Positions 19 through 22,781 of a stretch of 48,182 nt of DNA are shown one piece after another. The position numbers and the translations under genes are program-made. The notes beneath the pieces are model-generated. The model did not search any database, was not told the DNA's origin, and worked only from the letters and a program-made list of their open reading frames with translations. Origin of the DNA: a virus; the IMG/VR virus record IMGVR_UViG_3300031705_000594, positions 1 through 48,182 of that record. One strand, written 5' to 3'. The number at the start of each line of letters is the position of its first letter. The first letter of the stretch is position 1.

Positions 19-522
19 ATGGGCTCTCGTATCTTAGACAATTCAATGCCCAATCGTGCATTGATCGAAGATGCAACTAAGTTGTATTATCTAGAAGAAC
101 AAATCAAACAAGACAAACTAATATTCAAACCGCAACTATTACACGAACCTTGGGCAGATAGATATCGTGTTCATCCTGGTTCGGGTCGTATCGCAGCAAT
201 GTGGAAATGTGATCCCATAAAACCTATAGAAAGCATCTATATTCACTTCAATGAAGACATATTTACTATCCCTCAGAATAGCACCGAAGTGAGGTCCTCA
301 GAGGCTTTCTTAGACGCAATCACGTATAAGGCGACTAATAGCATAGATTGTACAGTGGAACCAGCGTTAAAACGTACGGAACGAGACACCGAATGGAATC
401 CAACAATAGTAAGTACCGTAAATTGGGAATTCATTCGTTATAGTGAAGGGAAATATTTCTTGGAATATAAGCAAGCATGGCGTGACTACGCACTCGACTT
501 ATGGTTACTACTTAATCGCTAG
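19..522 (+). CDS. Unknown protein, convergent to the radical SAM operon
   Basis: A 167-residue protein of no recognised family. The frame is open to the left edge of the window, so a longer upstream start is possible; the ATG used here has a weak AGAG about six bases upstream. The product is rich in aromatic and acidic residues (several W, Y, D/E) and has no membrane segment or signal peptide. It is one of the few plus-strand genes; its last 15 bases overlap the end of the leftward oxygenase gene, so the two transcription units meet tail to tail here without a visible terminator hairpin. Function unknown. Confidence 0.6.
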   Translation: MGSRILDNSMPNRALIEDATKLYYLEEQIKQDKLIFKPQLLHEPWADRYRVHPGSGRIAAMWKCDPIKPIESIYIHFNEDIFTIPQNSTEVRSSEAFLDAITYKATNSIDCTVEPALKRTERDTEWNPTIVSTVNWEFIRYSEGKYFLEYKQAWRDYALDLWLLLNR

Positions 523-1128
523 ATTAGATCTAACCCAGTCATGCATTTCAGGCGTGTTATGCGCATTGATAACTAACCAATAACTATCTTTAGTACTTGC
601 ATTAAATAATGCATGCTCTAATGTAGTGTTCACTGCATATAGTTGGCCCATTTCAAAATAAAGCGGCTTATCTTCTAACATAAATCTAAACCACGGATTT
701 GTAGTATTAGATAACGCCATTATTAATCTAAACGTATCCACATTTTCACCACGACTATCTCGATGTGGTGGGAAATAACCGCCTGGCGATACTCTCAATA
801 TATGCGTTCTACCACATAAATGTAATATATCACCAAGTAACTCTTTCATTGAAGTGAGATCATACACAGGGGTAGTTTTATCAAAATCTTTTTCACTGTA
901 ATCTGTATTATATTTTCTATTCCATTCATACAGACTATTCAATGCGGGACCAGATTGATTTAAACCACTTTCATTTATTACACATAGACCGTCTCGCTTA
1001 ATATGTGGTTTAAATTCATTGTATTGTTCCCATTTATCGTCAAACTGTGATAGTTCTTCCATAAATCTGCTAGTATTAATACTCTTATCTAATAAGATTT
1101 GATTTCCTAAATTAAAAATTACAGACAT
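508..1128 (-). CDS. 2-oxoglutarate/Fe(II) oxygenase-like protein (aspartyl/asparaginyl beta-hydroxylase type)
   Basis: About 206 residues. The start chosen is the ATG at 1128 (reading MSVIFNL), which follows an AAGGA ribosome site and lies just after the stop of the radical SAM gene; an upstream ATG at 1212 would overlap that gene heavily. The C-terminal half carries an H-x-D motif (H122, D124, in GGYFPPHRDSRG) and a distal histidine (H172, in TTLEHALFN), the expected iron facial triad of the cupin-fold hydroxylases. Such enzymes use 2-oxoglutarate and oxygen to hydroxylate peptide side chains or small molecules. It is the last gene of the operon and the second oxygenase in it. The family assignment rests on this motif spacing; the substrate is unknown. 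Confidence 0.72.
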   Translation of the reverse strand: MSVIFNLGNQILLDKSINTSRFMEELSQFDDKWEQYNEFKPHIKRDGLCVINESGLNQSGPALNSLYEWNRKYNTDYSEKDFDKTTPVYDLTSMKELLGDILHLCGRTHILRVSPGGYFPPHRDSRGENVDTFRLIMALSNTTNPWFRFMLEDKPLYFEMGQLYAVNTTLEHALFNASTKDSYWLVINAHNTPEMHDWVRSNLAIK

Positions 1129-1132
1129 ATAA

Positions 1133-2302
1133 CTATTCCTTAAAAGATGTATCGCCGGGAAACAATGGTAATTGTGTACCTGGCGCACGCTTAGGTATCT
1201 TACTATCTGCACTACTCACGCACGCATTAGTCGTACATACTGTGGGTGCATCAAATAACTTGAAACCTGTTTCTATATTTCCTAACGGCTGATCTACGCA
1301 ACTATAACTACGCTTCACACTACCATCTGGTTCTCTGATAATAATACTACGATGACCAGATGAACATTCCCAGCCCTTGAATTTATTAAAACCAAATGCG
1401 TTGAATCGTTCAGCCTGATCCATGAACCAATGCTTGTTATCTTTATCCATGAACTCAACTTGAAAATGCTGAGGCACTGTTACATTCTCTTCCCAATACA
1501 ACGGATCCCCATCTTTCTTAAATGTAGGTGTCGGGCGTGTAACCAACTGAGTCTTTTTCGCTTTATCTTCTGTATAACCACGCTGTGGCATACCGTTGTG
1601 TAATCGCTCCATCTGCTCTGCGGTGTAACCATCTACTATCTTACTAGCAGTAGGATCAGACATAGGCTTTAATGTACAGTTGATTCCCTGATTATGAAAG
1701 AATAACGCATTATCCCAATCTCGCTCAAACCATTCTGGAACCATCACTTGATTGATAGTTACTTGTACATCATGTTCTTGACAGAATATTAACTTATCAG
1801 CAAAGACTTGCATCTTTTCTCTAGTGTCTAAATGCTCTGTGTGCAAACTTGCTGTAATACTTGCTCTATGAAATGGTGCGACATTCTTAACATAAGTCTC
1901 AAACCACTTCATGGGACGTGACATATTAGTTGTCATGTGAACTGATGTGTAATTAGTGTTATCTACATCATCTGCAAGGTGTTTCATTATATCCAAATAT
2001 CCCGGATGGAATGTTGGTTCACCCCCGCTTAAACTAAAGTGAAAACTATTGAAACCATTGTCTCGTGCTTGACGCTTAATCTCGTCAACTGTACGTAAAC
2101 ATAACTCAGTAGGTCTAAAGTCTTTCTTATCACTACGAGCGTAAGGCCAGCAGTAACTACAACGATAGTTACAATAGCGTCCCAGTAACCAACTAATACT
2201 GAATAAATCGCGATGAAGCATTGTGCGTTGCCCTACTCTTACTAAATCATCAAATGGTATTTTAGTAAAATCGTATGTACTGTATTTTAAATCTTCGCTC
2301 AT
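1133..2302 (-). CDS. Radical SAM protein with C-terminal twitch/SPASM-like cysteines
   Basis: About 389 residues from the ATG at 2302, one base after the upstream nuclease stop. Alternative in-frame starts are 2335 (AGAG ribosome site) and 2350. The [4Fe-4S]-binding CX3CX2C motif is in the segment RYCNYRCSYCW (C44, C48, C51 from this start) and the SAM-contacting GGEP follows (SLSGGEPTFHP). The C-terminus has a GWECSSGH segment, DGSVKRSYSC, LGNI, and then CTTNAC, a pattern typical of proteins binding an auxiliary Fe-S cluster. Unlike the other radical SAM proteins of the operon, it has no cysteine-rich segment in front of the core, so it belongs to a different subgroup. Reaction and substrate unknown. 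Confidence 0.87.
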   Translation of the reverse strand: MSEDLKYSTYDFTKIPFDDLVRVGQRTMLHRDLFSISWLLGRYCNYRCSYCWPYARSDKKDFRPTELCLRTVDEIKRQARDNGFNSFHFSLSGGEPTFHPGYLDIMKHLADDVDNTNYTSVHMTTNMSRPMKWFETYVKNVAPFHRASITASLHTEHLDTREKMQVFADKLIFCQEHDVQVTINQVMVPEWFERDWDNALFFHNQGINCTLKPMSDPTASKIVDGYTAEQMERLHNGMPQRGYTEDKAKKTQLVTRPTPTFKKDGDPLYWEENVTVPQHFQVEFMDKDNKHWFMDQAERFNAFGFNKFKGWECSSGHRSIIIREPDGSVKRSYSCVDQPLGNIETGFKLFDAPTVCTTNACVSSADSKIPKRAPGTQLPLFPGDTSFKE

Positions 2303-2303
2303 T

Positions 2304-2741
2304 TTAGATGCACCATGAAATCTTTTTATCGCCATAATATTCTCTAGCAAAGCCTTCTGCTATGAGCATGTGTCTTAAACTCTTGCCATCTATAATGATA
2401 TCACCAAGTACTCGACCACCATACTTGTCCCATTTATAAATGGCTACTTGTATAACCGTTGCTGCATTTAACATATCTTTAGTAAACTGTGACGCTTCTT
2501 CACCCCATGCTGCTTCTTTAGGACATTCTGCTCTCCAACTTTTTTCTGGAGTATCTACACCATATACACGAATACTTAATTCCTGCTTCAATGGTGCTGG
2601 TAAAAAGGTAGCTTCAAATGCAACGGTGTCGCCATCAATCACTCTTGTAATCTTATAATCGTAGATGGTCATCTCTACTTCTTTTGCCATTGCTGGCATT
2701 GTTGATAGTATTGCAATTAATAAAATTATAATCGTTCTCAT
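2304..2741 (-). CDS. Secreted staphylococcal-nuclease-like (thermonuclease) protein
   Basis: A 145-residue SNase-fold nuclease with an N-terminal signal peptide (hydrophobic residues 4-17, likely cleavage after AMA at 19). Catalytic and calcium-binding positions known from Staphylococcus nuclease are all visible: VIDGDT (D38), RVYGVDTPE (R58, D63, T64, E66) and YGGRVLG (R110). It should cleave DNA or RNA outside the cytoplasm, in the periplasm or after lysis. The ATG has a GGAGAG ribosome site. A T4-late-like motif (rc ATAAATAC, 2762-2769) lies 21 bases upstream, inside the end of the preceding gene, at the same distance as for the virion genes, so it may be expressed late as well as with the operon. 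Confidence 0.88.
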   Translation of the reverse strand: MRTIIILLIAILSTMPAMAKEVEMTIYDYKITRVIDGDTVAFEATFLPAPLKQELSIRVYGVDTPEKSWRAECPKEAAWGEEASQFTKDMLNAATVIQVAIYKWDKYGGRVLGDIIIDGKSLRHMLIAEGFAREYYGDKKISWCI

Positions 2742-3676
2742 GCTGTCTCTCCGTTAATGTAGTATTTATTATAAAGTATATCGTATGCGTCTACGACCTG
2801 TTTGTAACGCCTACCATATATCTGTGCTGCTTCTTTTAATATATCACTGTTACTTACACCTAAGTAATCAAGTATAACATCTGTATTTTTAAACCATTCA
2901 ACGTCTACTACTAAATGATCAATTTTATCTTCTTCTATATAGGATAATGACTCATTTTGAACAAACACATCTTCGTAATCGTGTTTTTCTTCAAATAGCC
3001 TATGGAACGAATACTCAAATTCAAAAATACCATCACCAGTGTTATCGTCTATGTGACTTAGCGATTTCTTCAAATCCCAATGTGCAAAATTTAATTGCCA
3101 CATATATTTCAACTTACCATCGTGAAAATCCTCTATACATTTGTCGTGATAATCTCTATACCAAACTTCTTTCCATTTGCCAATAATATCTCCGTCCATT
3201 AGCATGTGATCTTCCCACCACAACTGCGTTTGTTCAATTATCTCATCTTCTGTTAATTCAATAAATGCATATTGCGTTATATAGAACATTGCACTTTGTT
3301 CGGTTGTGACTTGGGTGAATATGAGTTTGTCAGCAATTGGTGCGAACCTTGAATCATATGTAGCACCGAAATAATTACTCCACACTTTATATTGAAAATC
3401 TTCATTAAATTTAAAATATTCGGAAAGGCAATCAATCCCACCATCTGTTTCTGTTTTATTTTCCATCATTCTAAGCGTTTCTTGATGACTATAATATAAA
3501 TCTTGATCAATAAGATGGGTATATCGGTTCTCTTCAACTATGGTTCCAATTGCTAGTCGTTCAGGTGTTGGCTTTAATCCAGAATAGATTTGAGGACCAA
3601 ATCTATGATCTTGTGCAAGCCACCAATGAATCGCAGGTGCATGTGCATTTACTACTTGATATATTCCGATGTTCAT
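2738..3676 (-). CDS. Unknown protein of the radical SAM operon
   Basis: A 312-residue protein, soluble, rich in Tyr, Trp, Asp and Glu. No catalytic motif or known domain was recognised. The C-terminal part (VVDVEWFKNTDVILDYLGVS and the helix after it) faintly resembles the end of sulfotransferases, in which a predicted amphipathic helix follows a short LGV segment, but no PAPS-binding P-loop is visible, so that is not claimed. Its ATG overlaps the stop of the small signal-peptide gene (ATGA) and its end overlaps the start of the nuclease gene by four bases, so it is translated as part of the operon. Confidence 0.75.
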   Translation of the reverse strand: MNIGIYQVVNAHAPAIHWWLAQDHRFGPQIYSGLKPTPERLAIGTIVEENRYTHLIDQDLYYSHQETLRMMENKTETDGGIDCLSEYFKFNEDFQYKVWSNYFGATYDSRFAPIADKLIFTQVTTEQSAMFYITQYAFIELTEDEIIEQTQLWWEDHMLMDGDIIGKWKEVWYRDYHDKCIEDFHDGKLKYMWQLNFAHWDLKKSLSHIDDNTGDGIFEFEYSFHRLFEEKHDYEDVFVQNESLSYIEEDKIDHLVVDVEWFKNTDVILDYLGVSNSDILKEAAQIYGRRYKQVVDAYDILYNKYYINGETA

Positions 3677-3789
3677 AGTGCAAGGTAATTAGGCATAGCC
3701 ATGATAGGCGATGATGTTAAAATTATAGCCAATGTGACTGACGCCACTTTAGCCAATAGCACTACTGCTTGCTTAATATATATTTTCAT
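3673..3789 (-). CDS. Small protein with signal peptide or single membrane segment (38 aa)
   Basis: A 38-residue ORF reading MKIYIKQAVVLLAKVASV at the start and ending in PIMAMPNYLAL. It has two lysines, then a hydrophobic stretch of about 18 residues, then a small-residue site (MAM), so it is either a secreted peptide or a single-pass inner-membrane protein. A strong AAGGA ribosome site sits eight bases before the ATG, and its TGA overlaps the ATG of the next gene (ATGA), which supports it as real. It lies in what otherwise looks like a 120-base gap. Function unknown; a small membrane partner or a peptide substrate of the operon are both possible. Confidence 0.65.
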   Translation of the reverse strand: MKIYIKQAVVLLAKVASVTLAIILTSSPIMAMPNYLAL

Positions 3790-3798
3790 AATTATTCC

Positions 3799-4398
3799 TT
3801 AATTTTTTGAACGGTTAATCCATTCTTCATCTGTCACTTGTATAGGATCAATACTTAATTCATTCAATGACAGATGTTCAGGCAATATCATCGCATATTC
3901 AATACAATCTACCGCTTCTTCAAATGTCATCAACTTGCGTCCTGGATGCTTGTCTGCGTTATTCGGCAATGTACCAAACGTAACATAACTCACCTTTGGG
4001 CCACCTTGCCAGATACTTTTCAATCCCATAGCGTTACTCGCACTACGTAATGCTTTCTTCTCTTGTTGATATGTCCAATCCGACCCTTTTGTAGCCCTGT
4101 CCGTGGTGGACCCGACAGACACTATATGTAGGGATTTCCGGGCACTCTGTGCGGTTTTATATACTACATCTAGTAGCAGTGCCTGATGGTACTGCCATAG
4201 TGCACTACAGTTAATAAAAATGTCGTATTCTAGTGCTTTATTTGCAACAGTTTTTTTCACATGATTCAATGTTAGATCATGGTCACTGATGCTTTGACTA
4301 ATAAAATCTGTCTGTGGATATCGTTTTAATATCTCACTCGCTAGACCAATCTCTGGATTACCTGTACATAATATTTTCTTATTAGTTAAATCAATCAC
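3799..4398 (-). CDS. Short-chain dehydrogenase/reductase (SDR)-like protein
   Basis: About 199 residues from a GTG start at 4398. The GTG overlaps the TGA of the upstream 39-aa gene (GTGA) and has an AAGGA site; an ATG at 4449 also exists but would run through that small gene. Near the N-terminus is an SDR-like dinucleotide-binding turn, TGNPEIG (residues 12-18), one residue shorter than the usual TGxxxGxG. NCSALW stands where NNAG is usual, then a serine cluster (about S94-S97), and YQQEK (Y110, K114), the YxxxK catalytic pair. It probably oxidises or reduces a hydroxyl or keto group with NAD(P). The pathway context suggests a tailoring step on a sugar or small molecule. Confidence 0.75.
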   Translation of the reverse strand: MIDLTNKKILCTGNPEIGLASEILKRYPQTDFISQSISDHDLTLNHVKKTVANKALEYDIFINCSALWQYHQALLLDVVYKTAQSARKSLHIVSVGSTTDRATKGSDWTYQQEKKALRSASNAMGLKSIWQGGPKVSYVTFGTLPNNADKHPGRKLMTFEEAVDCIEYAMILPEHLSLNELSIDPIQVTDEEWINRSKN

Positions 4399-4514
4399 TT
4401 TACTTTCCTTTTTACTACTGGACGCAACGTCCATATTTCTTTTGTACATCGGTGTGGCATATCGTCAACGTAGGTACCACAATATGGGCATAGAATCTGA
4501 TTAGTTATTGTCAT
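4395..4514 (-). CDS. 39-aa zinc-ribbon-like protein
   Basis: A short ORF within the overlap region between the radical SAM gene and the SDR gene. It encodes CPYCG (C9, C12) followed by PHRC (H21, C23), a minimal zinc-binding knuckle, then a basic tail ending KRKVK. The ATG lies inside the end of the upstream radical SAM gene and is preceded by AAAGGA with seven bases of spacing. The TGA overlaps the GTG start of the SDR (GTGA). Both junctions are typical of translational coupling, so this is probably real although very small. Role unknown; a nucleic-acid-binding or protein-binding zinc knuckle is possible. Confidence 0.6.
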   Translation of the reverse strand: MTITNQILCPYCGTYVDDMPHRCTKEIWTLRPVVKRKVK

Positions 4515-5721
4515 TGATTTGTCCTTTAAATTCTGGACATGATTCTACTAACGTACCACGTTGCAATTCATCCATCTTCAAATTATAATCAATAAATTCT
4601 TGCCAGTGTTCAGCATGTGTATTCCCAGCATTTAAATACTTAATCACATCGTCTACCTTAGGCCATGCTTTATGACTTTTTAAATTATACAATGCCAACG
4701 TCTTTAAATGATGTGGCAATACTTGTATATTCATACTACGCGGATGGTTTAATATATTGAAATATAACTGATCATGTTCTAATCCACGTGATTCCGCAAA
4801 CTCGATAACCTCGTGTAGTGCACATACATTCAATGCTTGTACCGTACAATGAATCTGAATATATACATTATCCAATTTAGATAATTCATCAAAATTCTTT
4901 TCTACTATATGCCAATGACTAGGGTAACGAATATATCTGTCACGCGCACCAATTGCATCAATTGAGCAATTTAATTGTACACGCTTGAAATGTGACCAAT
5001 ATTCGATCATCTTCGGTGGCACATTAGTTAGGTTGGTGTTGTACTTTAAACGAATGCCCGATGCAAGATCATTTTCAATACAATAGTCTAACAACTTATA
5101 TTGACTAACTGCCAATGTAGGCTCACCACCAGTTAAATAAATTTCTTCAACCGTATGAGCAATTTCAGTGAATGTAATACCTGTCTTTTCCCAATCTGGC
5201 CATTCAGTCATGGTATTCATGAATTCTAATGTGTCTTCATCCAATTTCTTTGGTGGATCTAAATATGCTGCATCAACTACTTTATTCCAATCTTTAACCC
5301 ACATGCTACTTGCCCACGGATTACACATGCGACATTTTAGGTTACATAAGTTACCCAAGCGTAAGTCAACATATTTCACATCAACTGGAATTTCAACATC
5401 TATCTTCACATCTTCTTTCAGCCACTTTTCATTAAATCCTGCTCGCGCACTACGAATGCCAGCATCTTCTTCTCTGAAACAACGCGCACACATATCTGGT
5501 CGCTCACCATCGATGAACTGTTTTCTGATAGTTGTATAGGTTGGGCTATTCCATACTTCATCTAAATCATGCTTGTAGATTTTATATGGCTTGCCATTCT
5601 CTTGTAATATTGTGTTCTCACCGGGCGTGCTATTACAGCATACTCGATAAGATCCCGCAGCATTAGTTGCTACGTGCATAAAGGGTAAAACACAGAACGT
5701 GTCACTTACTTTTTTTGTCAT
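4501..5721 (-). CDS. Radical SAM protein with N-terminal SPASM/twitch-like segment
   Basis: About 406 residues from the ATG at 5721 (reading MTKKVSD); an ATG at 5763 would overlap the preceding gene. Residues 1-85 form a cysteine-rich segment: C10 (in FCVLPF), C28-C29 (YRVCCN), C78 and C81 (MCARC). The radical SAM core follows with C126, C130, C133 (NLCNLKCRMC) and a TGGEP motif. SPASM-type cysteines normally follow the core; here they precede it. The same permuted layout recurs in four neighbours, which suggests gene duplication within the operon. Family members use SAM to make a 5'-deoxyadenosyl radical and often act on peptides. Substrate unknown. Confidence 0.88.
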   Translation of the reverse strand: MTKKVSDTFCVLPFMHVATNAAGSYRVCCNSTPGENTILQENGKPYKIYKHDLDEVWNSPTYTTIRKQFIDGERPDMCARCFREEDAGIRSARAGFNEKWLKEDVKIDVEIPVDVKYVDLRLGNLCNLKCRMCNPWASSMWVKDWNKVVDAAYLDPPKKLDEDTLEFMNTMTEWPDWEKTGITFTEIAHTVEEIYLTGGEPTLAVSQYKLLDYCIENDLASGIRLKYNTNLTNVPPKMIEYWSHFKRVQLNCSIDAIGARDRYIRYPSHWHIVEKNFDELSKLDNVYIQIHCTVQALNVCALHEVIEFAESRGLEHDQLYFNILNHPRSMNIQVLPHHLKTLALYNLKSHKAWPKVDDVIKYLNAGNTHAEHWQEFIDYNLKMDELQRGTLVESCPEFKGQINDNN

Positions 5722-5725
5722 TGGT

Positions 5726-6658
5726 TTAAATCCATTTTGTATAATCTTTGCCATCACTATCATCTAGTATCATTACATGATCAATCAATTGTTGTTTATT
5801 ATCTTGATCATCCAATGCACCCGGAGCCATGTATGCGGGACTAATCAAATCACTCGCTCTATTGAAGTGAATATCGTGACTTGTCGCCCAATCATTCACT
5901 TCGTGAATGTTATTAATATTTAGTACACTTGGTAAACACGTAATACATATACTCGTATTATCAGGTGAACTCTTGTGTATGTCAATGATATTATTACTTA
6001 CTTGTTCCCAGTTTGCTCCTCGTCTAAGGTATTCAAAACGCTCACCTATGGCATCTACACTTGCAACTATTATAACACGTTTAAACGATTCGAACAAGGG
6101 ATAATATGCATTAATATCTATTGTTCCATTAGTAATGAATTGTAATTCAATCGTAGATGAAACGTCTGCATCGATCAGATATTTAATTATCTTCTTTACT
6201 TGTGGTATCATGAATGGTTCACCACCTGTAAATTTAAGAATCTTTGCAAAATGCAATTGTGGGTATATCTGCTCAATATCTTTGTGCCAACCTGTATTTG
6301 CTTTGCGCTTACCAGTTTTTACTGCCCACGAACTTGAACTATAACTATCACATGAGACGCACGTGAGATTACACGTGTTGTTAATCTTTAAGTCCCATTG
6401 CTCTGTGCCAATGCTATCTGCTAGTACATCATTCATATACATTCGATAACTCTTACCATTTGACTCTTCATCTTGTTGGCACTCTATGCATTCAGGCAAC
6501 CAACCTCGCAATGACTCAACATAGTATTTGTTGTGCAACGATTCCCAATCATCGGTAATTGCAACACCAGATGATGCCGCATTCCAAGCACAGCATGGTC
6601 TAACTTCGCCTGTTACGCCTATCGTTACTGCATGTTTAAACGCCAAGCATTTTGGCAT
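5726..6658 (-). CDS. Radical SAM protein with N-terminal SPASM/twitch-like segment
   Basis: A 310-residue paralogue. The N-terminal cysteines are C4 (KCLAFKH), C22-C23 (VRPCCAW), C57 and C60 (ECIEC), and the core motif is C96, C100, C103 (NTCNLTCVSC) with FTGGEP after it. It is the shortest of the permuted group and ends about 90 residues earlier than its neighbour, so the far C-terminal helix region is missing or reduced. The ATG lies within the last codons of the upstream oxygenase gene and has AGGTG upstream. The downstream radical SAM gene starts five bases after its stop. Confidence 0.87.
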   Translation of the reverse strand: MPKCLAFKHAVTIGVTGEVRPCCAWNAASSGVAITDDWESLHNKYYVESLRGWLPECIECQQDEESNGKSYRMYMNDVLADSIGTEQWDLKINNTCNLTCVSCDSYSSSSWAVKTGKRKANTGWHKDIEQIYPQLHFAKILKFTGGEPFMIPQVKKIIKYLIDADVSSTIELQFITNGTIDINAYYPLFESFKRVIIVASVDAIGERFEYLRRGANWEQVSNNIIDIHKSSPDNTSICITCLPSVLNINNIHEVNDWATSHDIHFNRASDLISPAYMAPGALDDQDNKQQLIDHVMILDDSDGKDYTKWI

Positions 6659-7391
6659 AGCCGCGATTCACCTGTTGTTTAAATTCATCACTAGGACCAC
6701 CATCAAAGATCATATGTATCCTTGGTTCTTCACTTTTATTCCATACAGAATGCTTATATCCTGTATTCAATTTCATCACTGAACCTGCTTCAAATGGAAC
6801 AATACCCATACCTTCAAATACGAATTCGCATCCATCTGGATTGTTTAATGCTACATTAGTTGCACCTACTCCAACTGGATTAGGTCTATCGTTGTGAATG
6901 CCCAACCAACCATCTGGTAACAGTGCCATGAACCTTACACGAGCAAACTGGTTGTACAACATTTCATCTTGCATCCATTGTACTGTTTTAGGGCAAAATT
7001 TAGCAATATCAGTCCAGTCACTATGGGTTTCTTCATAATCATCTGGTAAGTTATAATCTTCTGCACAATTAGTATGTACACTGCTTATTCCATGAATCGA
7101 CAAACTCAACCACCCCGAACTACAAGGACGGTGTGCAGTAAAGCATGACGTATATAACAAATTATTTGCTTCTTCAAACAAATCCTTGTGTGGTACATTA
7201 ATTTCTGGTATCGATATATATGGAAAACGGGTATTGTCCATGATGTAATCAACATCGTGCTCACTTTCTTCTAAAAAATTCCCTGCATCTAATATTTTAA
7301 AATCAGGTTTAATAATTCTATTTTCTTCATGCCATATAATTGATTCATCATCAATTTCTTCCCTATCTAAAGGTGATCCTTCAAACCACAT
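6636..7391 (-). CDS. 2-oxoglutarate/Fe(II) oxygenase-like protein (Asp/Asn beta-hydroxylase type)
   Basis: 251 residues. The C-terminal half carries H166-x-D168 (WLGIHNDRPN), a distal H214 (GYKHSVWNKS) and R224 (EEPRIHMIFD), the expected iron triad and 2-oxoglutarate arginine of the aspartyl/asparaginyl beta-hydroxylase/proline hydroxylase-like cupins. GSVMKLNTGYKHSV is a typical lead-in to the distal histidine. The first 130 residues match nothing I recognise. A clear AGGAG site precedes the ATG. It sits between radical SAM genes, so it may hydroxylate the same substrate. Paired with the similar but divergent oxygenase at 508-1128. Confidence 0.8.
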   Translation of the reverse strand: MWFEGSPLDREEIDDESIIWHEENRIIKPDFKILDAGNFLEESEHDVDYIMDNTRFPYISIPEINVPHKDLFEEANNLLYTSCFTAHRPCSSGWLSLSIHGISSVHTNCAEDYNLPDDYEETHSDWTDIAKFCPKTVQWMQDEMLYNQFARVRFMALLPDGWLGIHNDRPNPVGVGATNVALNNPDGCEFVFEGMGIVPFEAGSVMKLNTGYKHSVWNKSEEPRIHMIFDGGPSDEFKQQVNRGYAKMLGV

Positions 7392-7401
7392 AATTTATCT
7401 C

Positions 7402-8961: not shown

Positions 8962-8991
8962 TTTTCGTCCTTATCGTCTGATTTCATATGT

Positions 8992-9327
8992 TCATTTATT
9001 CCCACAAAAATAGGAACAAACTGTTGGTGGATTATCACTATCAAATCCTTCATCCCATAGATATGTCCAAAATAAATTATGCTTCGTTACATTTTCGACT
9101 CCATGTACTACAGCATTATTCCAATCAGGATCTTCTTCATTAAGTTTATCCAATACGGTATCAGTAAGATCAACATGACTATTGGAAGACTTTTTTAGTT
9201 CAGTAGCATAATAACAACATGGCCAGACCCTGCCCGCTACAGTTATCTCAAATTGGCGCTTCACTTTATCGTCTTTTGTCTCACATGCGACTATACACTC
9301 AATGTTATTTTTATTAGATTCCTTCAT
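8992..9327 (-). CDS. Stand-alone SPASM-like cysteine-rich protein
   Basis: 111 residues with six cysteines in a SPASM-like arrangement: C11 and C15 (ECIVAC), C37-C38 after AGRVWP (the usual G-x-V-x-P-C-C segment) and C104, C108 (TVCSYFC). No radical SAM core of its own. Its ATG overlaps the last 14 bases of the upstream radical SAM core gene and has its own AGGAG site, so the two look like a radical SAM/SPASM enzyme split into two polypeptides. It should bind one auxiliary Fe-S cluster and associate with the 9314-10012 product. Confidence 0.75.
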   Translation of the reverse strand: MKESNKNNIECIVACETKDDKVKRQFEITVAGRVWPCCYYATELKKSSNSHVDLTDTVLDKLNEEDPDWNNAVVHGVENVTKHNLFWTYLWDEGFDSDNPPTVCSYFCGNK

Positions 9328-10012
9328 ACCGTACTCCTAGATTTTGAAATCGCTGCTTTAATTCTTCTATTACGTGATGCTCGTCGCGTTCACGCAAACG
9401 CATTGCATATTCAAGATCTACTATAAAATTCATCTCGATATCAAGTTCACCTGCGTGTAAATATGCTTCTTCTATTTGATGTATATTCCATTCAAATAAT
9501 ATAAACTGCCATCGCGTCTCACCATCATTATCATTAAACGCTCGCATATTGGCATATGCCTTATCAAATACTACACCCTCTCTATATTTCCAATTAGTAT
9601 CATGATCTAATCCATCAATACCAAATATAATACTCAGTCTTCCAGAATATTTTTTAGCAATTGTTGCATACCAATTAGCATTTCTAAGACCTCCATTGGT
9701 ACTTATAATCATAGATACATCTTTATCTTCATCTGCTAACACATATTCCATCATTTCATTAATATGCGGATTCATCATGGGATCACCATATTGTCCACAT
9801 AACTTAACATATCGTACTTTATTAGATACATTATATTCGCTGGAAAAAATCATTTTAAATGTTTCAAGCGACATATGCTCTTGTACTAACCAATCAACAG
9901 GTTCACCAGTATCAGGATTAGTACGTGGACACCGTCTACATCTTGCATTGCAATATGTAGTTATTTCCATTTCCACTTTATGAGCGTCTACATCGTCGTA
10001 CTTATATATCAT
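9314..10012 (-). CDS. Radical SAM core protein lacking its own SPASM domain
   Basis: A 232-residue protein that starts almost directly with the core: C21, C25, C28 (TYCNARCRRC), then LCGQYGDPMMNP in place of the usual GGEP. It ends where a SPASM domain would normally begin. The next gene supplies such a domain separately. The N-terminus (KVEMEITTYCNARC) is more like classical SPASM peptide-modifying enzymes than like the permuted neighbours, so it is a third radical SAM subtype in this operon. The function is unknown; post-translational peptide chemistry is a family-level possibility only. Confidence 0.85.
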   Translation of the reverse strand: MIYKYDDVDAHKVEMEITTYCNARCRRCPRTNPDTGEPVDWLVQEHMSLETFKMIFSSEYNVSNKVRYVKLCGQYGDPMMNPHINEMMEYVLADEDKDVSMIISTNGGLRNANWYATIAKKYSGRLSIIFGIDGLDHDTNWKYREGVVFDKAYANMRAFNDNDGETRWQFILFEWNIHQIEEAYLHAGELDIEMNFIVDLEYAMRLRERDEHHVIEELKQRFQNLGVRYEGI

Positions 10013-11228
10013 TATTGATGTCTATTAAAAAATCAGTAAGTGGCATATCAAGATATTGTTCTATCATCTCACTTAATTTAATCTTAGGATTGTATCTATT
10101 TTCTAAATCACGTGTGTACTTACGCATCTTAGTATATTGTATATAATCTCGTTGATTATTTTCCATATAAGTAGCAAATGTATCCATCTCTGGATGTTCT
10201 TTTTCATGCTTTCGTAATTTATTAATAATAGCCGATCTATAAGGCTCAGGCCATATCGCTGGGCTTAGTATCTTTGGTGTATGTAATATGTTAGCAGTAA
10301 TGAATGTCAATTCAATGTCACTCTGCTTCCAGTATTCATAAAATTCTGGCATCTGAAATATATTATGTGCTTGTATAGTAATACCCAATGCTAAGTCTAT
10401 ATGCTCTATGTCATTCAATACACTCAGATTAGATTCTACTGTACTCCAATCACCACCTTCACGAATGTAATCATAAACATCATTGACACCATCAAGTGAT
10501 ACTTTGATATTAACATGCTTGAATTGACTCCAAATTTCTAGCAAATTATATTTTTTAAATGTTAGATGACTCAGATTAGTAGCATATCGCAATTTGATCG
10601 TAGATCGTAGATGCTCTGGTATCGATTCAAGTAAGTCGTAATGCTCTTGATTAATGATAGGTTCGCCACCAGTGAATTGTAATACTTTAACTGTATCCCA
10701 GAACCCATCCCATTTGCCTATGCTATCAAACAACGTAGTTGGTCGTAGGAGACGTGTTTCGTGATGCTCTGTACCCATATACTTCTCAATGATGTCTAAG
10801 TCCTGTACGCGCTTGTACGAACTATGTGTACTACACATAATACATTTCAAATTACAGAAGTTAGAAACCTTCAACTCTATCCACAATGGTGGATTATCTA
10901 CAGAGTAATCATCATTGAGTTTGATCAAGTCTTTATAATTATCCCAATCATCGTCAAACCATTGCTGTCTATTTGATACAACACCACTTGCTTCATTATG
11001 CCAACATACATCACACTCTGATGGTATCTCATTGCTAGTGAGTGCCCTACGAAGTTCTTTGTAGTTGTCATTATTCCATGTGTCTTCAATAGCAGCACCC
11101 GGCTCATTGAAAATCTTAGTTTGTGCTTCACAGCAAGGTACTATATCGCCGCCCGCTGATCCGTAAGTATGCATGAATGGTATCATACAAAATGATGTTG
11201 TTTTTGCTAGTTCATTAATATCTTTCAT
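10002..11228 (-). CDS. Radical SAM protein with N-terminal SPASM/twitch-like segment
   Basis: 408 residues, same permuted layout as its neighbours: C14 (SFCMIPFMH), C32-C33 (IVPCCEA), C72 and C75 (ECDVC), then core C125, C129, C132 (NFCNLKCIMC) and FTGGEP. It is closest in pattern to the 4501-5721 protein (both have a C-x-x-P-F-M-H opening), which supports duplication. Its ATG overlaps the end of the upstream radical SAM gene by 14 bases, and its own end overlaps the next gene by 11 bases. Confidence 0.88.
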   Translation of the reverse strand: MKDINELAKTTSFCMIPFMHTYGSAGGDIVPCCEAQTKIFNEPGAAIEDTWNNDNYKELRRALTSNEIPSECDVCWHNEASGVVSNRQQWFDDDWDNYKDLIKLNDDYSVDNPPLWIELKVSNFCNLKCIMCSTHSSYKRVQDLDIIEKYMGTEHHETRLLRPTTLFDSIGKWDGFWDTVKVLQFTGGEPIINQEHYDLLESIPEHLRSTIKLRYATNLSHLTFKKYNLLEIWSQFKHVNIKVSLDGVNDVYDYIREGGDWSTVESNLSVLNDIEHIDLALGITIQAHNIFQMPEFYEYWKQSDIELTFITANILHTPKILSPAIWPEPYRSAIINKLRKHEKEHPEMDTFATYMENNQRDYIQYTKMRKYTRDLENRYNPKIKLSEMIEQYLDMPLTDFLIDINNDI

Positions 11229-12348
11229 TTAATAATTTCTTATATCCTTGTATATATTCTTCTGCATCATTATTACGTAAATCAAACAATTCGTGCATTT
11301 GATCTAAATAAATTTCACTATTATCTGGTGCGTTATTTGTTTTACATAATGAAATTAATAATGTATATGCTTTCTTTAATTTCCAGTGACAGTCTTTGTA
11401 TTGCTCTTCTACTATCGCTCTCAAATTATTCTTATATGTATCTGTCTGATGCGCAATACTCAACCAATCAGGCTCATGTATAGTCTGTAACATTACTGGT
11501 ACACCTATCTCAAATCTTGCCCATCTCATTAGATCTATTAACACTGGTGCATTTAATACACCAACTGTGCAAGCGACAAATACTTCTACCTTGTCGTATT
11601 TAGTTCCCAATTCTGTCCATTGCTTCAGTACAGATTCAATAGCAGGGAATTTGGATGGGTGACGTAATATATCGTTTAATTCGCCAACTGCATCTATACT
11701 ATTCGTAATTCGCAAGTTATTGAATTCTAATAGATAATCTAAGTTCATCTTCGCTGGCCAGTATGTGCAATTCGTAAATATCTCAATATCGATCTGAGGT
11801 GCAATACCACTATCTACCAATCGTTTAATGAATCGTAAAAACTGCTTATGCATGAACGGCTCACCACCTGTCACTTTCATATATTTCAAATGAGATAGTT
11901 GATCCATGGATAGTGCATCTAAATCATATTCTCTATTCTTTGCAAAATGTTCTAATACTTCAACCATCACTAAATCAATCGCTAGTGCGTCTTTATCCCA
12001 TGTATGACTATACTCAGGTCCGCAACCAACACATGCAAGATTACATAGATTGCCCACTGTAATCTCTAGATATTCTAATTGGATTGAATCTGTGAAATCA
12101 TCAAAGAATTCGTCTGCTTCTGTTCGCATACTAGTAAGACCAGTATCTTCATCGGCTTTGCATTTCCAGCAACCCTCATGCCATTCGTTCCTTAACATCG
12201 TCTCGCGAATATCTTTAAACACATACTTGTTATCATCATCAGATAAGTAACGATCATGAAATTTACAACATGGTGTAGCGGGAGTACCGTTTGCAAGCAT
12301 TGCTGCTTTGAACGGATATGCACAAGCGTTACTCGGCAAATTTGCCAT
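11215..12348 (-). CDS. Radical SAM protein with N-terminal SPASM/twitch-like segment
   Basis: 377 residues: C9 (ACAYPFKA), C27-C28 (TPCCKFH), C60 and C63 (GCWKC), then core C102, C106, C109 (NLCNLACVGC) and VTGGEPFMH. The C-terminal third is helical and without cysteines. AGAGG precedes the ATG, which lies within the last codons of the aminotransferase-like gene. Part of the same paralogous set as 4501, 5726, 10002 and 13747. Confidence 0.88.
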   Translation of the reverse strand: MANLPSNACAYPFKAAMLANGTPATPCCKFHDRYLSDDDNKYVFKDIRETMLRNEWHEGCWKCKADEDTGLTSMRTEADEFFDDFTDSIQLEYLEITVGNLCNLACVGCGPEYSHTWDKDALAIDLVMVEVLEHFAKNREYDLDALSMDQLSHLKYMKVTGGEPFMHKQFLRFIKRLVDSGIAPQIDIEIFTNCTYWPAKMNLDYLLEFNNLRITNSIDAVGELNDILRHPSKFPAIESVLKQWTELGTKYDKVEVFVACTVGVLNAPVLIDLMRWARFEIGVPVMLQTIHEPDWLSIAHQTDTYKNNLRAIVEEQYKDCHWKLKKAYTLLISLCKTNNAPDNSEIYLDQMHELFDLRNNDAEEYIQGYKKLLNERY

Positions 12349-13246
12349 TATTTTTATACCTCTTTAGTGCTTTCGCTAAGTTGATGCGATTGTATGCGCG
12401 ATCACGATGGAACATATCCCATTCTGGTGTATCAGGTGCTTGGGCAATATGTATCGTATTAGTCTCTTGCAATCCATAATGTTCACATACAATTTTATGT
12501 GCTTCTCTATATTTGTTAGGCATAGTATCTGGGCTGAACTTTTTCATTAACGCATTAGACAATGCTACATTCAAATGAATACCGTGATTCCATTCTGTCT
12601 GCACTCGCATACCACAACGCTCTTCATCTAAACGACTGAACACAATACCAGCACGCCAGTTACCACCACTTAATCCTTTACCAGTGCTGAATGCAACCAT
12701 CTTAATACAATCATGTGACAAATCAACATCAATATCAAAACAAGTTCCAAACCATGCACAATCTACCAGAATAGGAATATTCTTTGCTGTACACTCTTCA
12801 ATCAACCAATCCCATCGCTCGTGCTTGCGTCCGTTACCACTGAATGGAATACTAACGATAACCGCATCACCTACGGATAACCCAGTATCGTCAATGCTAT
12901 CTGACCAATTCATTTCTGGTCCCAACCATACATCACGGTTATACGGATATTCACCACGGAACACCTTTAAGTTCTGTCCAGTAGCGATGCACCAATACTG
13001 CCACCATTCTAATGCTTGTGTAGTACCTAAACTAACATAACGATCAGGATATGTATCTAACCCAGTAAAGTTATTTAATTTGCTGCTTTGTATCCATTTG
13101 GGATATAATTCTAAGAATTCTGCTGGTGCTGTACCCACTTCTGCCAAATTCATATTTGGCAATACTTCATCTTGTATATAGTCAATAAATGGTTGATTCC
13201 AAATACTGTTGCCTGTCTTACCGAAATCTGGGTTGTTACTCATCAT
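12329..13246 (-). CDS. PLP-dependent fold type I (aminotransferase-like) protein
   Basis: 305 residues. Fold type I features are visible: GTTQAL (residues 74-79) where the PLP-phosphate-binding small-residue turn should be, VDCAWFG with D162 as the likely pyridine-nitrogen aspartate, and FSTGKGLSGG with K190 as the likely Schiff-base lysine, followed by WRAGIVF. It is shorter than typical class I/II or DegT aminotransferases (about 370-400 residues), with the C-terminal small domain reduced. It may transaminate or decarboxylate a pathway intermediate. The ATGATG start overlaps the TGA of the upstream gene and has AAGGA. Confidence 0.77.
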   Translation of the reverse strand: MMSNNPDFGKTGNSIWNQPFIDYIQDEVLPNMNLAEVGTAPAEFLELYPKWIQSSKLNNFTGLDTYPDRYVSLGTTQALEWWQYWCIATGQNLKVFRGEYPYNRDVWLGPEMNWSDSIDDTGLSVGDAVIVSIPFSGNGRKHERWDWLIEECTAKNIPILVDCAWFGTCFDIDVDLSHDCIKMVAFSTGKGLSGGNWRAGIVFSRLDEERCGMRVQTEWNHGIHLNVALSNALMKKFSPDTMPNKYREAHKIVCEHYGLQETNTIHIAQAPDTPEWDMFHRDRAYNRINLAKALKRYKNNGKFAE

Positions 13247-13506
13247 GTATTCCTTGTTAGTCCTAGTGCTATTGCATTATCAAATGTAATAGGATGTGCG
13301 CTTACAACGAGCATAAAGAAATCTCTCGCTTCATCGTAATCATTAAATATAGATTCAAATACTATTTCACTTGTTGTACCACTAAGTGTAACACTATATT
13401 TGTCTGTAATTGTTTCATCCGAATATGTGAGTATAACTAAATCGTTATTAGCACCCATATTGTCTTTGAAGTCTTCTGTCGTTTTTATATATTGTCGTTT
13501 TATCAT
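13243..13506 (-). CDS. Unknown small protein (87 aa)
   Basis: 87 residues, predicted soluble, mixed alpha/beta, no cysteines and no motif recognised. Its ATG overlaps the stop of the preceding gene (TAATG) and its TGA overlaps the next start (ATGA), so it is translationally coupled on both sides. It could be an accessory or a substrate protein for the surrounding enzymes; nothing in the sequence decides this. Confidence 0.65.
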   Translation of the reverse strand: MIKRQYIKTTEDFKDNMGANNDLVILTYSDETITDKYSVTLSGTTSEIVFESIFNDYDEARDFFMLVVSAHPITFDNAIALGLTRNT

Positions 13507-13757
13507 TATAAATATGCCATCTTTAATAAAAATATTTCTTCATCTGGTAGGTCAACTAGAGTAACCCATTCATTGAATGTATAATTAATTCCATCAATCC
13601 ACCATGCAGCGTGACCATCAGGCCATATAACCGCAGGTCCAATCTCATTATGCCATATACACTCATCGTCGTATATGTAGCCGCAATATTCTCTATGATG
13701 TACGATCACGATACCATCGTTTGTTACTACAAATGTGCAAGTTGCACTATCTGACAT
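13506..13757 (-). CDS. Small protein with H-N-E-x-G-P-A / DG...WW repeat-like motif
   Basis: 83 residues. The centre reads WHNEIGPAVIWPDG followed by AAWWIDG, a motif that recurs in many small phage proteins and resembles a single MORN/YwqK-like beta-hairpin unit. No catalytic residues are evident. Its start overlaps the end of the radical SAM gene by 11 bases and its stop overlaps the next ATG (TAATG). Function unknown. Confidence 0.65.
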   Translation of the reverse strand: MSDSATCTFVVTNDGIVIVHHREYCGYIYDDECIWHNEIGPAVIWPDGHAAWWIDGINYTFNEWVTLVDLPDEEIFLLKMAYL

Positions 13758-14997
13758 AACTCTCGATTTCTGGTATATACTGCAATGTTTCTGTTTTTCG
13801 TAATCTATCTAAATCGTCAGTGTACCTTAGAAACCAATTCCATTGCTTATCAGATTCTTGATCATCTTCGTTTGATAACATTAACCCATTACGAATGGAT
13901 TCAATACCTGTCTGATATCCACCTTCATCTGAGTTTGCACTAGTAAGTGGCCACATTTCTAAATTAGGGATATGCTTTATTTTATCATACGCCAATGCTT
14001 TCAACTCTTCTGGCATATTTCCTATATTCAAATAGCCAGGATGAACTACCACGTTACTCATCGAAATACTTGCACGATGCGCATGATGGGTAGCAAACCA
14101 TTCCCAGACTTTATCTAAATTAAATATATTGGTAATCATTACCGTAACAGCAAACACTACCTCTACATTTGGGATATCGTAGAATTTTTCTATGTTCTCG
14201 TTCAATTGATCCCATGTGTAACTAGGACCGCCACGAATAATACTATATAATTCATCAGTTGCTTCTACACTAATTAATAATTCTACATGCTTAAAGTGAC
14301 TGAATAATTCTCTAAATTCTTCTTTGAATACGGTTGCATTTGTACTGATGTCTAATGATACGCTACTTGCAATACCATTGTCTACAAACCATTGCAATAC
14401 TGATAAACAGATTTCATCATACAACGGCTCACCACCACGCAGTGCCACCCATTGCAGATTGCGAAAATACTCTGGATTCTTAAATAGATTATCCATGAAG
14501 TCTATACTTGCACCATGATAACCTATTGGCTGTTTACTCCAATATTCTGGCTTTTCTCTATTAAGAGATTTACCATCTTTAGTCCAGCCTGTACTTACGA
14601 ACGGATCACAATGAATACATGCTAGATTACATTTATTACTAAGAGTAAAATCAAGATACCTAATATCAGGAACAGAATCTACTGTAAGATCTTTACTCGC
14701 AACCTTTGTTTCATGATCAATTCTATCCCAGAAATATAAACGACGACTGCGCCCAACTTTCTCTTTCTTCACGCAACCCTGACATGATTCTGGAATCTCA
14801 CGCTTACGATGTGATTCTCTCAATTCAGTGTATGCATCTCCCTCTAGTATTTCACGCAATGATTGCTTACCAATATTACCTAATTTACCTTTATAGATAA
14901 TGTCTGGGATGACGTTACCACCCCATTTAACAGTTAATGCGTGCCAAGGTGCTAAACAGGTAGGTAGATCTTTTCTATTTACGAATGTGTTTTTCAT
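13747..14997 (-). CDS. Radical SAM protein, N-terminal segment missing the CC pair
   Basis: 416 residues. Core cysteines C123, C127, C130 (NKCNLACIHC) and LRGGEPLYDE are intact. The N-terminal segment keeps C14 (PTCLAPWHA) and C72, C75 (SCQGC), but where the paralogues have V-x-P-C-C this protein reads NVIPDIIYKG, so the paired cysteines are lost and the auxiliary cluster should be absent or differently ligated. It directly abuts the kinase-like gene (stop and start adjacent). It may be a specialised or partly degenerate paralogue. Confidence 0.87.
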   Translation of the reverse strand: MKNTFVNRKDLPTCLAPWHALTVKWGGNVIPDIIYKGKLGNIGKQSLREILEGDAYTELRESHRKREIPESCQGCVKKEKVGRSRRLYFWDRIDHETKVASKDLTVDSVPDIRYLDFTLSNKCNLACIHCDPFVSTGWTKDGKSLNREKPEYWSKQPIGYHGASIDFMDNLFKNPEYFRNLQWVALRGGEPLYDEICLSVLQWFVDNGIASSVSLDISTNATVFKEEFRELFSHFKHVELLISVEATDELYSIIRGGPSYTWDQLNENIEKFYDIPNVEVVFAVTVMITNIFNLDKVWEWFATHHAHRASISMSNVVVHPGYLNIGNMPEELKALAYDKIKHIPNLEMWPLTSANSDEGGYQTGIESIRNGLMLSNEDDQESDKQWNWFLRYTDDLDRLRKTETLQYIPEIESYVR

Positions 14998-15759
14998 TTA
15001 ATTTATAGAACCTATGTTACGCCTGTTTATTTCCTTTAATTTTTCATAAGATATACGTGCTGCTGTTTCTATGTTAATCTCACAATCATCTAATACAGTA
15101 TTATACGTTAATTTTTTATAAACGTCATATGTACTATTATAATACTCAAACAGCAAATTATAGTCAGCGCCAATCTTTGCGGCTTCATACAAAGTTTCTA
15201 CAGCATCTATTACTAGGCATTCACCTATGTATTGTGAATCGTGAATTTGACCAAGAATGCAATCATCCCAATCAATAATAATCCAATCACCAATATCAAA
15301 CTGCAATATATTACTACGTCCGCCGTCAACATTACAATAAGGAAATATCTTCAGATTTGTTTCTATATATTTTGGAAATACGTGTTTATTATACATATCC
15401 ATATCGTTGTATATTGAGGATAATGGGTTAGAGTCATTCTCCAACCAAGATAAATTTTTGTCTAATTCAAACCCGTAAGGAACTCTTGTCATTTTATACT
15501 TAATAAAAGAATTTGAGTTTGACTCATTACCATTCCAAGAATAATCTAGTCTTTCAATAATTTCCCAATCATCATGTATTAGTTTTTTAGGGTGTAATGA
15601 ATTTATTAGATCAATTTGTCCTTGAATACATTCTTCATCAATAGCTGGTATTATTTTTACAATAAAATTACCATCGTCATATGCCCACCTTGGCATATGA
15701 CATGATCTCTCATTAGGATCACCGGGTTCGAACTTATCTGGCATTAATTTCTTATACAT
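14998..15759 (-). CDS. Kinase/phosphotransferase-like protein (APH-type fold) with altered catalytic loop
   Basis: 253 residues. The C-terminal half has NVDGGRSNIL (N143, D145, N150) followed by WIIIDWDDC (D163), which lines up with the H-x-D-x4-N catalytic loop and the metal-binding D-W-[ED] of aminoglycoside/choline-kinase-like phosphotransferases, with His replaced by Asn. An early FIVKII could supply the nucleotide-binding lysine (K35). It probably phosphorylates a small molecule, or is a pseudokinase. The family call rests on these two motifs and their order. Confidence 0.55.
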   Translation of the reverse strand: MYKKLMPDKFEPGDPNERSCHMPRWAYDDGNFIVKIIPAIDEECIQGQIDLINSLHPKKLIHDDWEIIERLDYSWNGNESNSNSFIKYKMTRVPYGFELDKNLSWLENDSNPLSSIYNDMDMYNKHVFPKYIETNLKIFPYCNVDGGRSNILQFDIGDWIIIDWDDCILGQIHDSQYIGECLVIDAVETLYEAAKIGADYNLLFEYYNSTYDVYKKLTYNTVLDDCEINIETAARISYEKLKEINRRNIGSIN

Positions 15760-15761
15760 TA

Positions 15762-15992
15762 TTAAAACAGTTCTCTTAATAATTTCTCTTCTGCTTTCTT
15801 CTTTGTACGACGATTTACGTCTGCTGCTGCAATTTCTCGCTGCATGTAATCTTCAAACATATTTTTCAGTTCATTCTCTTCTAAATTCACAATCTGTGAT
15901 TTAATTGAAGATAACACTTTTGTTACACTCATATCTGTACTTTTATTAATCTCATCTTGGATGATATTTGTTACTACGTCTGCATTAATCAT
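15762..15992 (-). CDS. Unknown 76-aa protein, first gene of the radical SAM operon
   Basis: 76 residues, largely helical and charged, with a basic stretch RRTKKKAEEK near the end; no domain recognised. A GGGGAT ribosome site precedes the ATG. It is the first gene after the consensus promoter at 16044-16073, so it is expected to be the most promoter-proximal product. By position it could be a substrate, scaffold or regulator of the pathway, but its sequence has no leader-peptide or core-peptide hallmark. Confidence 0.7.
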   Translation of the reverse strand: MINADVVTNIIQDEINKSTDMSVTKVLSSIKSQIVNLEENELKNMFEDYMQREIAAADVNRRTKKKAEEKLLRELF

Positions 15993-16043
15993 GGTAATCC
16001 CCTATAAGTTTTATATATATGTATGTATTATAACATTGATACT

Positions 16044-16073
16044 ATTATATACTATGTTTATATGTTCTGTCAA
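16044..16073 (-). promoter_or_regulatory. Consensus sigma70-type promoter of the radical SAM operon
   Basis: On the minus strand TTGACA, 18 bases, then TATAAT. It is the only recognisable promoter for the leftward run of genes from 15992 to 508, apart from the late-like motif before the nuclease. Confidence 0.8.
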
Positions 16074-22666: not shown

Positions 22667-22781
22667 TTCTTTACCTCTTGTATTGCATTGTATTTGTATA
22701 ACCAACAAGTAATCTGAATATTCCACCAATGGGAGCGTAGAATATAAAGATACCTATATTGTTCGTGCTTAGGAAACATTA

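Follow-up and report, generated by a model that had tools for sequence, protein, structure and literature searches.

What does a phage gain from an operon that encodes seven radical S-adenosylmethionine (SAM) proteins? This question is raised by IMG/VR virus record IMGVR_UViG_3300031705_000594 of a T4-related phage, of which positions 1 to 48,182 (48,182 nucleotides, referred to here as the window) were analyzed. The operon comprises 20 genes, all on the minus strand and head to tail, at positions 508-15992. A preliminary sequence-only reading had reported the seven radical SAM (rSAM) proteins and had proposed that the operon encodes one multistep pathway. All seven were indeed found at that location by matches to PF04055, and ten of the 20 genes, referred to here as the core, are a single, old, conserved biosynthetic unit.

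Conservation of the gene cluster in related phages

Relatives were collected from IMG/VR by scans with the operon protein R408 and with an alignment of the pyridoxal 5'-phosphate (PLP) enzyme, and showed 54-100% identity. The cluster was counted in 15 contigs; a sixteenth, G021, carries only a 39% relative of the PLP enzyme and no cluster, and was excluded. One contig, G003 (117,470 bases, incomplete), is the window's own phage, with 4 mismatches in 48,182 positions (99.992% identical). The core consists of the following genes, given in their conserved order.

13747..14997, minus strand: R416, N-terminal-twitch rSAM (NF033640, 252.8 bits; C123, C127 and C130 invariant in 16 orthologs)
12329..13246, minus strand: PLP enzyme, fold-type-I aminotransferase-like, with K190 and GNWRxG (weak match to PF00155; 16/16 contigs)
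11215..12348, minus strand: R377, N-twitch rSAM (NF033640, 226 bits; own clade, support 100)
10002..11228, minus strand: R408, N-twitch rSAM (NF033640, 313 bits; own clade, support 99)
7402..8961, minus strand: U519, predicted GT-A-like (GT25-type) N-terminal domain and Rossmann methyltransferase-like C-terminal domain (15 orthologs)
6636..7391, minus strand: AspH-type 2-oxoglutarate (2OG)/Fe(II) oxygenase of 251 residues (PF05118, Asp_Arg_Hydrox, 44.2 bits, above cut-off)
5726..6658, minus strand: R310, N-twitch rSAM (NF033640, 186 bits; own clade, support 99)
4501..5763, minus strand: R420, N-twitch rSAM (NF033640, 375 bits; own clade, support 100)
3799..4449, minus strand: short-chain dehydrogenase/reductase (SDR)-like oxidoreductase by motif (TGNPxxGxA, YQQEK; Y127 and K131 invariant in 11 orthologs), core in most relatives
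1133..2302, minus strand: R405, MoaA-like rSAM with C-terminal SPASM-like cysteines (PF04055, 50.3 bits)

The order R416-PLP-R377-R408-U519-(U493)-AspH-R310-R420-SDR-R405 and its strand were kept in 15/15 contigs, up to contig ends and single losses, and the core proteins share 50-75% identity with their orthologs. U493 is a paralog of U519 found in relatives and absent from the window's phage. The sequence-only reading had set beforehand, as the test that could refute a single pathway, a search for the same gene set and order in related phages, and conserved co-occurrence was found in the 15 contigs. Chance co-location is excluded by this conserved order, and one multistep pathway of some kind is very probably encoded, although not all 20 genes belong to it. 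Outside the conserved unit are the nuclease gene NUC, the genes for a 312-residue and a kinase-like protein, and those for proteins of 38, 76, 83 and 87 residues. Accessory genes have thus been gained and lost (NUC, lipase, SGNH, R392-R432), as would suit a hot spot that gathers unrelated auxiliary metabolic genes, but for the ten core genes this explanation is refuted by identical order and strand in 15 contigs at such divergence, and it is scarcely credible for the locus as a whole.

Contigs of useful length that bear the cluster contained 7-25 matches to the N_Twi_rSAM model NF033640, whose curated cut-off is 170 bits. In a tree of 70 rSAMs, built by a quick method and with long branches in the bacterial rows, each operon position formed its own group with support of 99-100 and a long stem. 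A recent tandem duplication as the origin of the seven rSAMs was ruled out by this tree. Additionally, dN/dS values of 0.04-0.39 indicated purifying selection. Together with the distinct orthologous lineages, this suggests that each rSAM probably carries out its own step.

Most relatives extend the unit upstream with SULT-R474-MTAN-R418-JMJ278-AMT, and some extend it downstream with R392-R239-R435-R432. The amidinotransferase was found in 13/16 contigs and matches the structures of HsvA, SxtG, StrB1 and AGAT. The amidinotransferase, nucleosidase, R474, R418, JMJ278 and SULT of most relatives are, like U493, missing from the window's phage (117 kb known, genome incomplete); its product should therefore be simpler and without a guanidino group, unless these genes lie in the unsequenced part. 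A ring-hydroxylating (Rieske-type) dioxygenase-like gene, below the Pfam cut-off, adjoins the cluster in two relatives (L053:6852-7934 in G007).

Properties of the radical SAM proteins

Six of the seven rSAM proteins scored at or above the PF04055 cut-off, the other being R416 (26.4 vs 29.5 bits). CX3CX2C is present in 7/7, as the sequence-only reading had stated, and its cysteines are invariant in all six rSAM families with one-to-one orthologs. The NF033640 cut-off was exceeded by 5/7, with R405 and R232 at about 42 bits. N-terminal auxiliary-cluster cysteines of the form C...CC...CxxC are present in R420, R310, R408 and R377 and not in R416, in which the CC pair is missing (GGNVIPDIIYKG), as it is in all three aligned orthologs; at most three of the usual auxiliary-cluster cysteines therefore remain. 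Judged from the sequence, this loss may provide an iron site open to the substrate. In R405, C60, C64 and C67 as well as C329, C351, C372 and C377 are invariant in 11 orthologs. The seventh rSAM is accessory and is accompanied by the separate SPASM-like protein that had been noted earlier.

9314..10012, minus strand: R232, rSAM half of a split rSAM/SPASM enzyme, accessory (PF04055, 31 bits)
8992..9327, minus strand: SPASM-like half of the split enzyme, 111 residues (PF13186, 16.6 bits, below cut-off)

The two genes adjoin in the window and in those relatives that have R232 orthologs, and in many relatives they are fused as one protein of 335-360 residues.

A tblastn search with one operon rSAM among 50,697 phage records found a relative in only 30, at no more than two places each. 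No tblastn match among phages was obtained with R405, U519 or U493, and no megablast match of the operon to GenBank phages.

Many SPASM and twitch maturases are known, and the operon has open reading frames (ORFs) of 38-87 codons, so that maturation of a ribosomally synthesized and post-translationally modified peptide (RiPP), with its precursor in or near the operon, had to be considered. The 38-, 76-, 83- and 87-residue proteins had been put forward earlier as possible substrates, which the comparison did not support: none of the short ORFs is conserved throughout the 15 clusters, and the 76-, 83- and 87-residue genes are confined to close relatives. Pfam scans of the 20 window proteins did not report a RiPP recognition element (RRE)/PqqD domain, and no protease or exporter is found among the operon genes. 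With neither a short ORF common to the clusters nor an RRE, a canonical RiPP is unlikely, and we regard this class of product as very improbable.

Partner enzymes

The PLP enzyme and the SDR had been correctly named from their motifs (K190; YxxxK), though not by family score, and both 2OG/Fe(II) oxygenase-like proteins were likewise recovered. In the 251-residue AspH protein, H166, D168, H214 and R224 are invariant in 14 orthologs. The second of these enzymes is accessory.

508..1128, minus strand: second AspH/cupin-like 2OG enzyme of 234 residues, accessory (PF05118, 19.6 vs cut-off 22.6 bits; HxD...H kept)

Orthologs of this protein were found in three other contigs. The family PF05118 also takes in LpxO, a lipid A hydroxylase. 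The SDR-like protein had no Pfam match, and PDB sequence searches with the AspH protein and with the PLP profile gave no match. A pattern scan of 84,980 bacterial and archaeal genomes for the origin of the PLP enzyme gave 83 matches, none of them a relative.

U519 had no family match and, in particular, no match to a Pfam glycosyltransferase (GT). An earlier AlphaFold2 model from seven sequences was poor (pLDDT 52), whereas the model from 26 sequences reached a pLDDT of 77.8 and a pTM of 0.73. Foldseek searches with the latter gave NNMT-type methyltransferases, the PBCV-1 capsid glycosyltransferase and viral GT25 proteins, which are consistent with each other and all weak.

These enzymes would also suit the modification of a virion or host protein, by AspH/JmjC-type hydroxylation, rSAM C-H chemistry and GT25-like glycosylation, of a substrate encoded elsewhere, such as a tail fibre or the capsid. 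SPASM and twitch rSAMs act mostly on peptides, and the rSAM profile has its top PDB match in the peptide maturase SkfB (5e-14). Moreover, AspH and JmjC-like oxygenases often have protein substrates, U519 resembles GT25-type and PBCV-1 capsid glycosyltransferases, and in the pelagiphage Mosig the AspH/MoaA/aminotransferase region adjoins tail fibres. The window's operon, however, is not beside tail genes, the cluster holds no conserved substrate gene, and bacterial N-twitch rSAMs are surrounded by genes for sugars rather than peptides. Protein modification is therefore rather unlikely.

A proposed modified sugar and other candidate products

A sugar is favored, though not proven, over the other products that had been suggested at first (peptide, virion or DNA modification) by the gene neighborhoods in bacteria, by a fusion protein and by the fold predicted for U519. 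N_Twi rSAMs are rare in sampled bacterial genomes (1/369, 1/385 and 3/396), with one or two copies per bacterium at most and two tandem copies in 2/162, against the 7-25 matches in each cluster-bearing phage contig of useful length. Among the loci read, an acidobacterial fusion protein combines an N-twitch rSAM, a methyltransferase and a WbsX glycosyltransferase, and an alphaproteobacterial N-twitch rSAM stands beside a GT2, an NAD-sugar epimerase and a methyltransferase. An acidobacterial N-twitch rSAM lies beside a GT4 and a Gfo/Idh gene, and one group of loci is found among GT4, GT1-like and polyketide synthase (PKS) genes. Two other loci lie beside an rSAM with a PfkB kinase and beside a methyltransferase, respectively. 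Additionally, the twitch profile matched in the PDB the aminocyclitol-oxidizing BtrN (5.8e-7) and the sugar-nucleoside enzyme cytosylglucuronate decarboxylase (2e-7). BtrN, a 2-deoxy-scyllo-inosamine dehydrogenase, is a twitch-domain rSAM whose twitch is C-terminal, whereas that of the operon rSAMs is N-terminal. The combination of rSAM oxidation, an aminotransferase and an amidinotransferase is known from aminoglycosides; unlike in aminocyclitol pathways, a cyclitol synthase was not found in the window's operon. A sugar would also be in keeping with the two nucleotide-diphospho-sugar transferases that accompany five rSAMs and an amidinotransferase in Campylobacter phage CP220, with StrB1 among the relatives of the amidinotransferase and with LpxO in PF05118.

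Thus, the product may plausibly be a modified sugar of an exotic amino or guanidino type on a glycan. The operon would be transcribed early from a host-type promoter, and its enzymes would work sequentially on a sugar or cyclitol: the N-twitch rSAMs and the SDR would carry out C-H oxidation or rearrangement, the PLP enzyme would transfer an amine, AspH would hydroxylate and, where present, the amidinotransferase would add a guanidino group. U519, with U493 in relatives, would then transfer or methylate the product. The target would be a glycan, for which the envelope of the infected cell is the most likely location, with a role in adsorption or superinfection control; a virion protein is a less likely target.

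Several observations weigh against a sugar. The PLP enzyme resembles class I, whereas sugar aminotransferases typically belong to the DegT class, and the conserved arginine of its GNWRxG motif suits a carboxylate. The SkfB match points to peptides, U519 has a best PDB Foldseek E value of only 1e-3 and no proven catalytic motif, and no more than five to seven bacterial loci provide context, one of them a polyketide cluster. In Pfam scans the window's operon had no genes for nucleotide-sugar synthesis, a flippase or a polymerase, functions that could come from the host. The amidinotransferase, the nucleosidase and U493 are, moreover, among the genes absent from the incomplete 117-kb contig of the window's phage.

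A diffusible or intracellular small molecule of the amino-acid, guanidine or aminocyclitol type, made for the infection and directed, for example, against rival phages or host defenses, would equally draw on the PLP enzyme, SDR and oxygenases. In its favor are the amidinotransferase of the SxtG/HsvA/StrB1 group in 13/16 relatives, the one bacterial N-twitch context in a PKS cluster and the AMP-binding adenylating enzymes that the phage genomes encode at other sites. The latter are, however, unlinked and not all homologous, and the operon has no exporter, self-resistance gene or carrier protein, which makes such a product unlikely. The AMP-binding (adenylate-forming) enzymes, which would provide an activation step, are encoded at L045:14948-17063 in G003 and at L104:1768-3251 and L099:4431-5864 in the 184-kb relative G014; in G003 and at one G014 site, the gene is followed by that of a distantly related protein with no assigned function.

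Hypermodification of phage DNA bases, of the 7-deazaguanine or thymidine type, could protect against restriction, and enzymes of the PLP and rSAM types are known to take part in modifying thymidine. The window's phage has a gene for QueC (TIGR00364, above cut-off) and one for a class II glutamine amidotransferase, and the Campylobacter phage CPt10, which has an rSAM and amidinotransferase module, has QueD. Against this, PF01702, the tRNA-guanine transglycosylase (TGT) family, was matched in 0/16 contigs, QueC was seen only in the window's phage among the phages read, the Que genes lie about 50 kb away, and the core cluster has no DNA-targeting enzyme. DNA modification by the operon is accordingly improbable. 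In G003, QueC overlaps the glutamine amidotransferase as if a Gat-QueC protein had been split (L045 18370-19702; record 58370-59702), and this pair possibly serves 7-deazaguanine DNA modification. Separately, a 497-residue protein with a TGT/DpdA-like DSGG[YF]Q motif is encoded in G014 (L100:5351-6844) and, with its five orthologs, is 68-86% conserved. It had no match in Pfam, PHROGs or NCBIfam and, from its motif, is a possible unrecognized DNA or tRNA transglycosylase.

Proposed supply of Fe-S clusters, electrons and by-product removal

Enzymes of the rSAM class depend on Fe-S clusters, on a source of low-potential electrons and on large amounts of SAM. In G003, genes for a ferredoxin-NADP-reductase-like protein (FNR), IscU and IscS (115119-117470) lie some 4-7 kb beyond base 1 of the window, about 5 kb from the operon; IscU scored 220 bits against a cut-off of 192, and IscS is truncated by the contig end. 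G014 has IscS, IscU, an A-type carrier and a reductase. Furthermore, a nucleosidase of the methylthioadenosine/S-adenosylhomocysteine (MTA/SAH) type (PF01048) lies inside the cluster in 12/16 contigs. Enzymes of this family can remove 5'-deoxyadenosine, a by-product of rSAM reactions. From proximity and chemistry, we infer a functional tie of these genes to the operon, in which the phage itself would supply Fe-S clusters, electrons and, in relatives, 5'-deoxyadenosine removal for its rSAMs. A phage that keeps a dozen rSAMs and parts of their supply system must gain much from the product.

A broader proposal, possible but doubtful, is that this marine T4-related lineage has the largest known dedicated viral rSAM pathway, with 7-25 diverged paralogs that would each be an ancient fixed step, and would itself provide for Fe-S assembly and electrons and, in relatives, for the removal of 5'-deoxyadenosine. 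It would make a new guanidino or amino sugar, or another scaffold, that remodels the surface of the infected cell.

Comparison with known systems

In Campylobacter phages, five rSAMs and a glycine amidinotransferase were described as an interchangeable, non-essential module, and 11-12 rSAMs were counted in CP220 and CPt10 (Timms 2010, PMC2853527). These phages are T4-like, as is the window's phage, and carry the five rSAM genes and the glycine-amidinotransferase-like gene in one stretch, to which CP220 adds two nucleotide-diphospho-sugar transferases and CPt10 a threonine-phosphate-decarboxylase-like gene. Sequence similarity to the present clusters is, however, slight (20-26% for the amidinotransferase), and their annotation shows neither the N-twitch gene order nor AspH or U519, and no Isc/FNR genes close by. 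At least five rSAMs with an amidinotransferase occur in 13/16 relatives and not in the window's phage (117 kb known).

A 183-kb T4-like marine genome, TARA_ERS488813_N000010, has 12 rSAM genes, an A-type Fe-S carrier, grx and paaD, and viral Fe-S assembly proteins were tied to viral Fe-S enzymes in the same work (Nishimura 2017, PMC5332604). In the text consulted, the rSAMs are given as a gene count, with no description of a pathway, gene order, partner enzymes or product. Pelagimyophage hypervariable regions hold rSAM cassettes with lipopolysaccharide genes (PMC7029224), and in Pelagibacter phage Mosig EXVC030M, MoaA-like, AspH-like and aminotransferase genes lie side by side. Those cassettes are highly variable and stand beside tail fibres, and a 22% match of the PLP enzyme was the only sequence link found. 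Finally, rSAM, Fe-S and glycosyltransferase genes are jointly enriched in Tasman Sea phages (PMC7150976).

The description of the operon as an undescribed system thus holds only in part. Phages with many rSAMs and the rSAM and amidinotransferase module were already known (PMC2853527, PMC5332604, PMC7029224), whereas neither the conserved pathway nor its supply genes seem to have been described: no account of the conserved gene order, the partner enzymes or the linked supply genes was found in the open-access literature, subscription papers being outside the search. The present results link three reports whose gene lists had so far stood apart, on Campylobacter phages, TARA T4-like genomes and pelagimyophage islands. 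The conserved ten-gene order provides a defined gene set for co-expression, by which the role of marine-phage rSAMs becomes directly testable.

Promoter, accessory genes and neighboring observations

The single consensus promoter reported earlier was confirmed ahead of the operon, whose intergenic distances are -38 to +51 nt with refined starts. Comparison with orthologs moved the start of the 405-residue gene from 2350 to probably 2302 and that of the 234-residue gene from 1212 to probably 1128. The G+C content of the operon (35.7%) is similar to that of the rest of the window (37.0%). The remaining features are as follows.

16044..16073, minus strand: sigma-70 consensus promoter TTGACA-18-TATAAT (12/12 bases matched; best of 69 sites)
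15762..15992, minus strand: 76-residue gene, first in the operon, kept in close relatives only
14998..15759, minus strand: 253-residue gene, kinase-like by motif reading only (1/16 contigs, the window's phage only)
13243..13757, minus strand: 87- and 83-residue genes, conserved in close relatives only
2738..3676, minus strand: 312-residue protein with no assigned function, accompanying NUC and not the pathway
2304..2741, minus strand: NUC, secreted SNase-like nuclease (PF00565, 50.4 bits), inside the operon and outside the conserved unit

For the 253-residue protein, kinase-like by its motifs, no family match and no PDB sequence match were obtained. NUC homologs are on the opposite strand in G005, G006 and G018. 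NUC and the protein of 312-336 residues form a travelling pair, independent of the rSAM pathway; in G014 they are adjacent at the far end (L107:20730-20000/L108, record 180730-182201).

Reading of the window's sequence also identified a family-B DNA polymerase, a ligase, PhoH and ClpA/B-like proteins. The terminase encoded by the window's phage is nearest to those of PA5oct-like jumbo phages (54% identity). A full-length acyl-CoA dehydrogenase gene (window 21521-22729, minus strand) is absent from the relatives read; its best matches, at 61-64% to marine gammaproteobacteria, were too weak to name a host. By sequence reading, G014 has glycine-betaine-type ABC transporter genes and a TctA/TctC-like transporter pair (L099:724-2603 and 9198-11807). 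The window likewise has a leucyl-aminopeptidase-like gene (37913-39334, minus strand), whose G014 relative adjoins ClpA/B and DnaJ-like genes.

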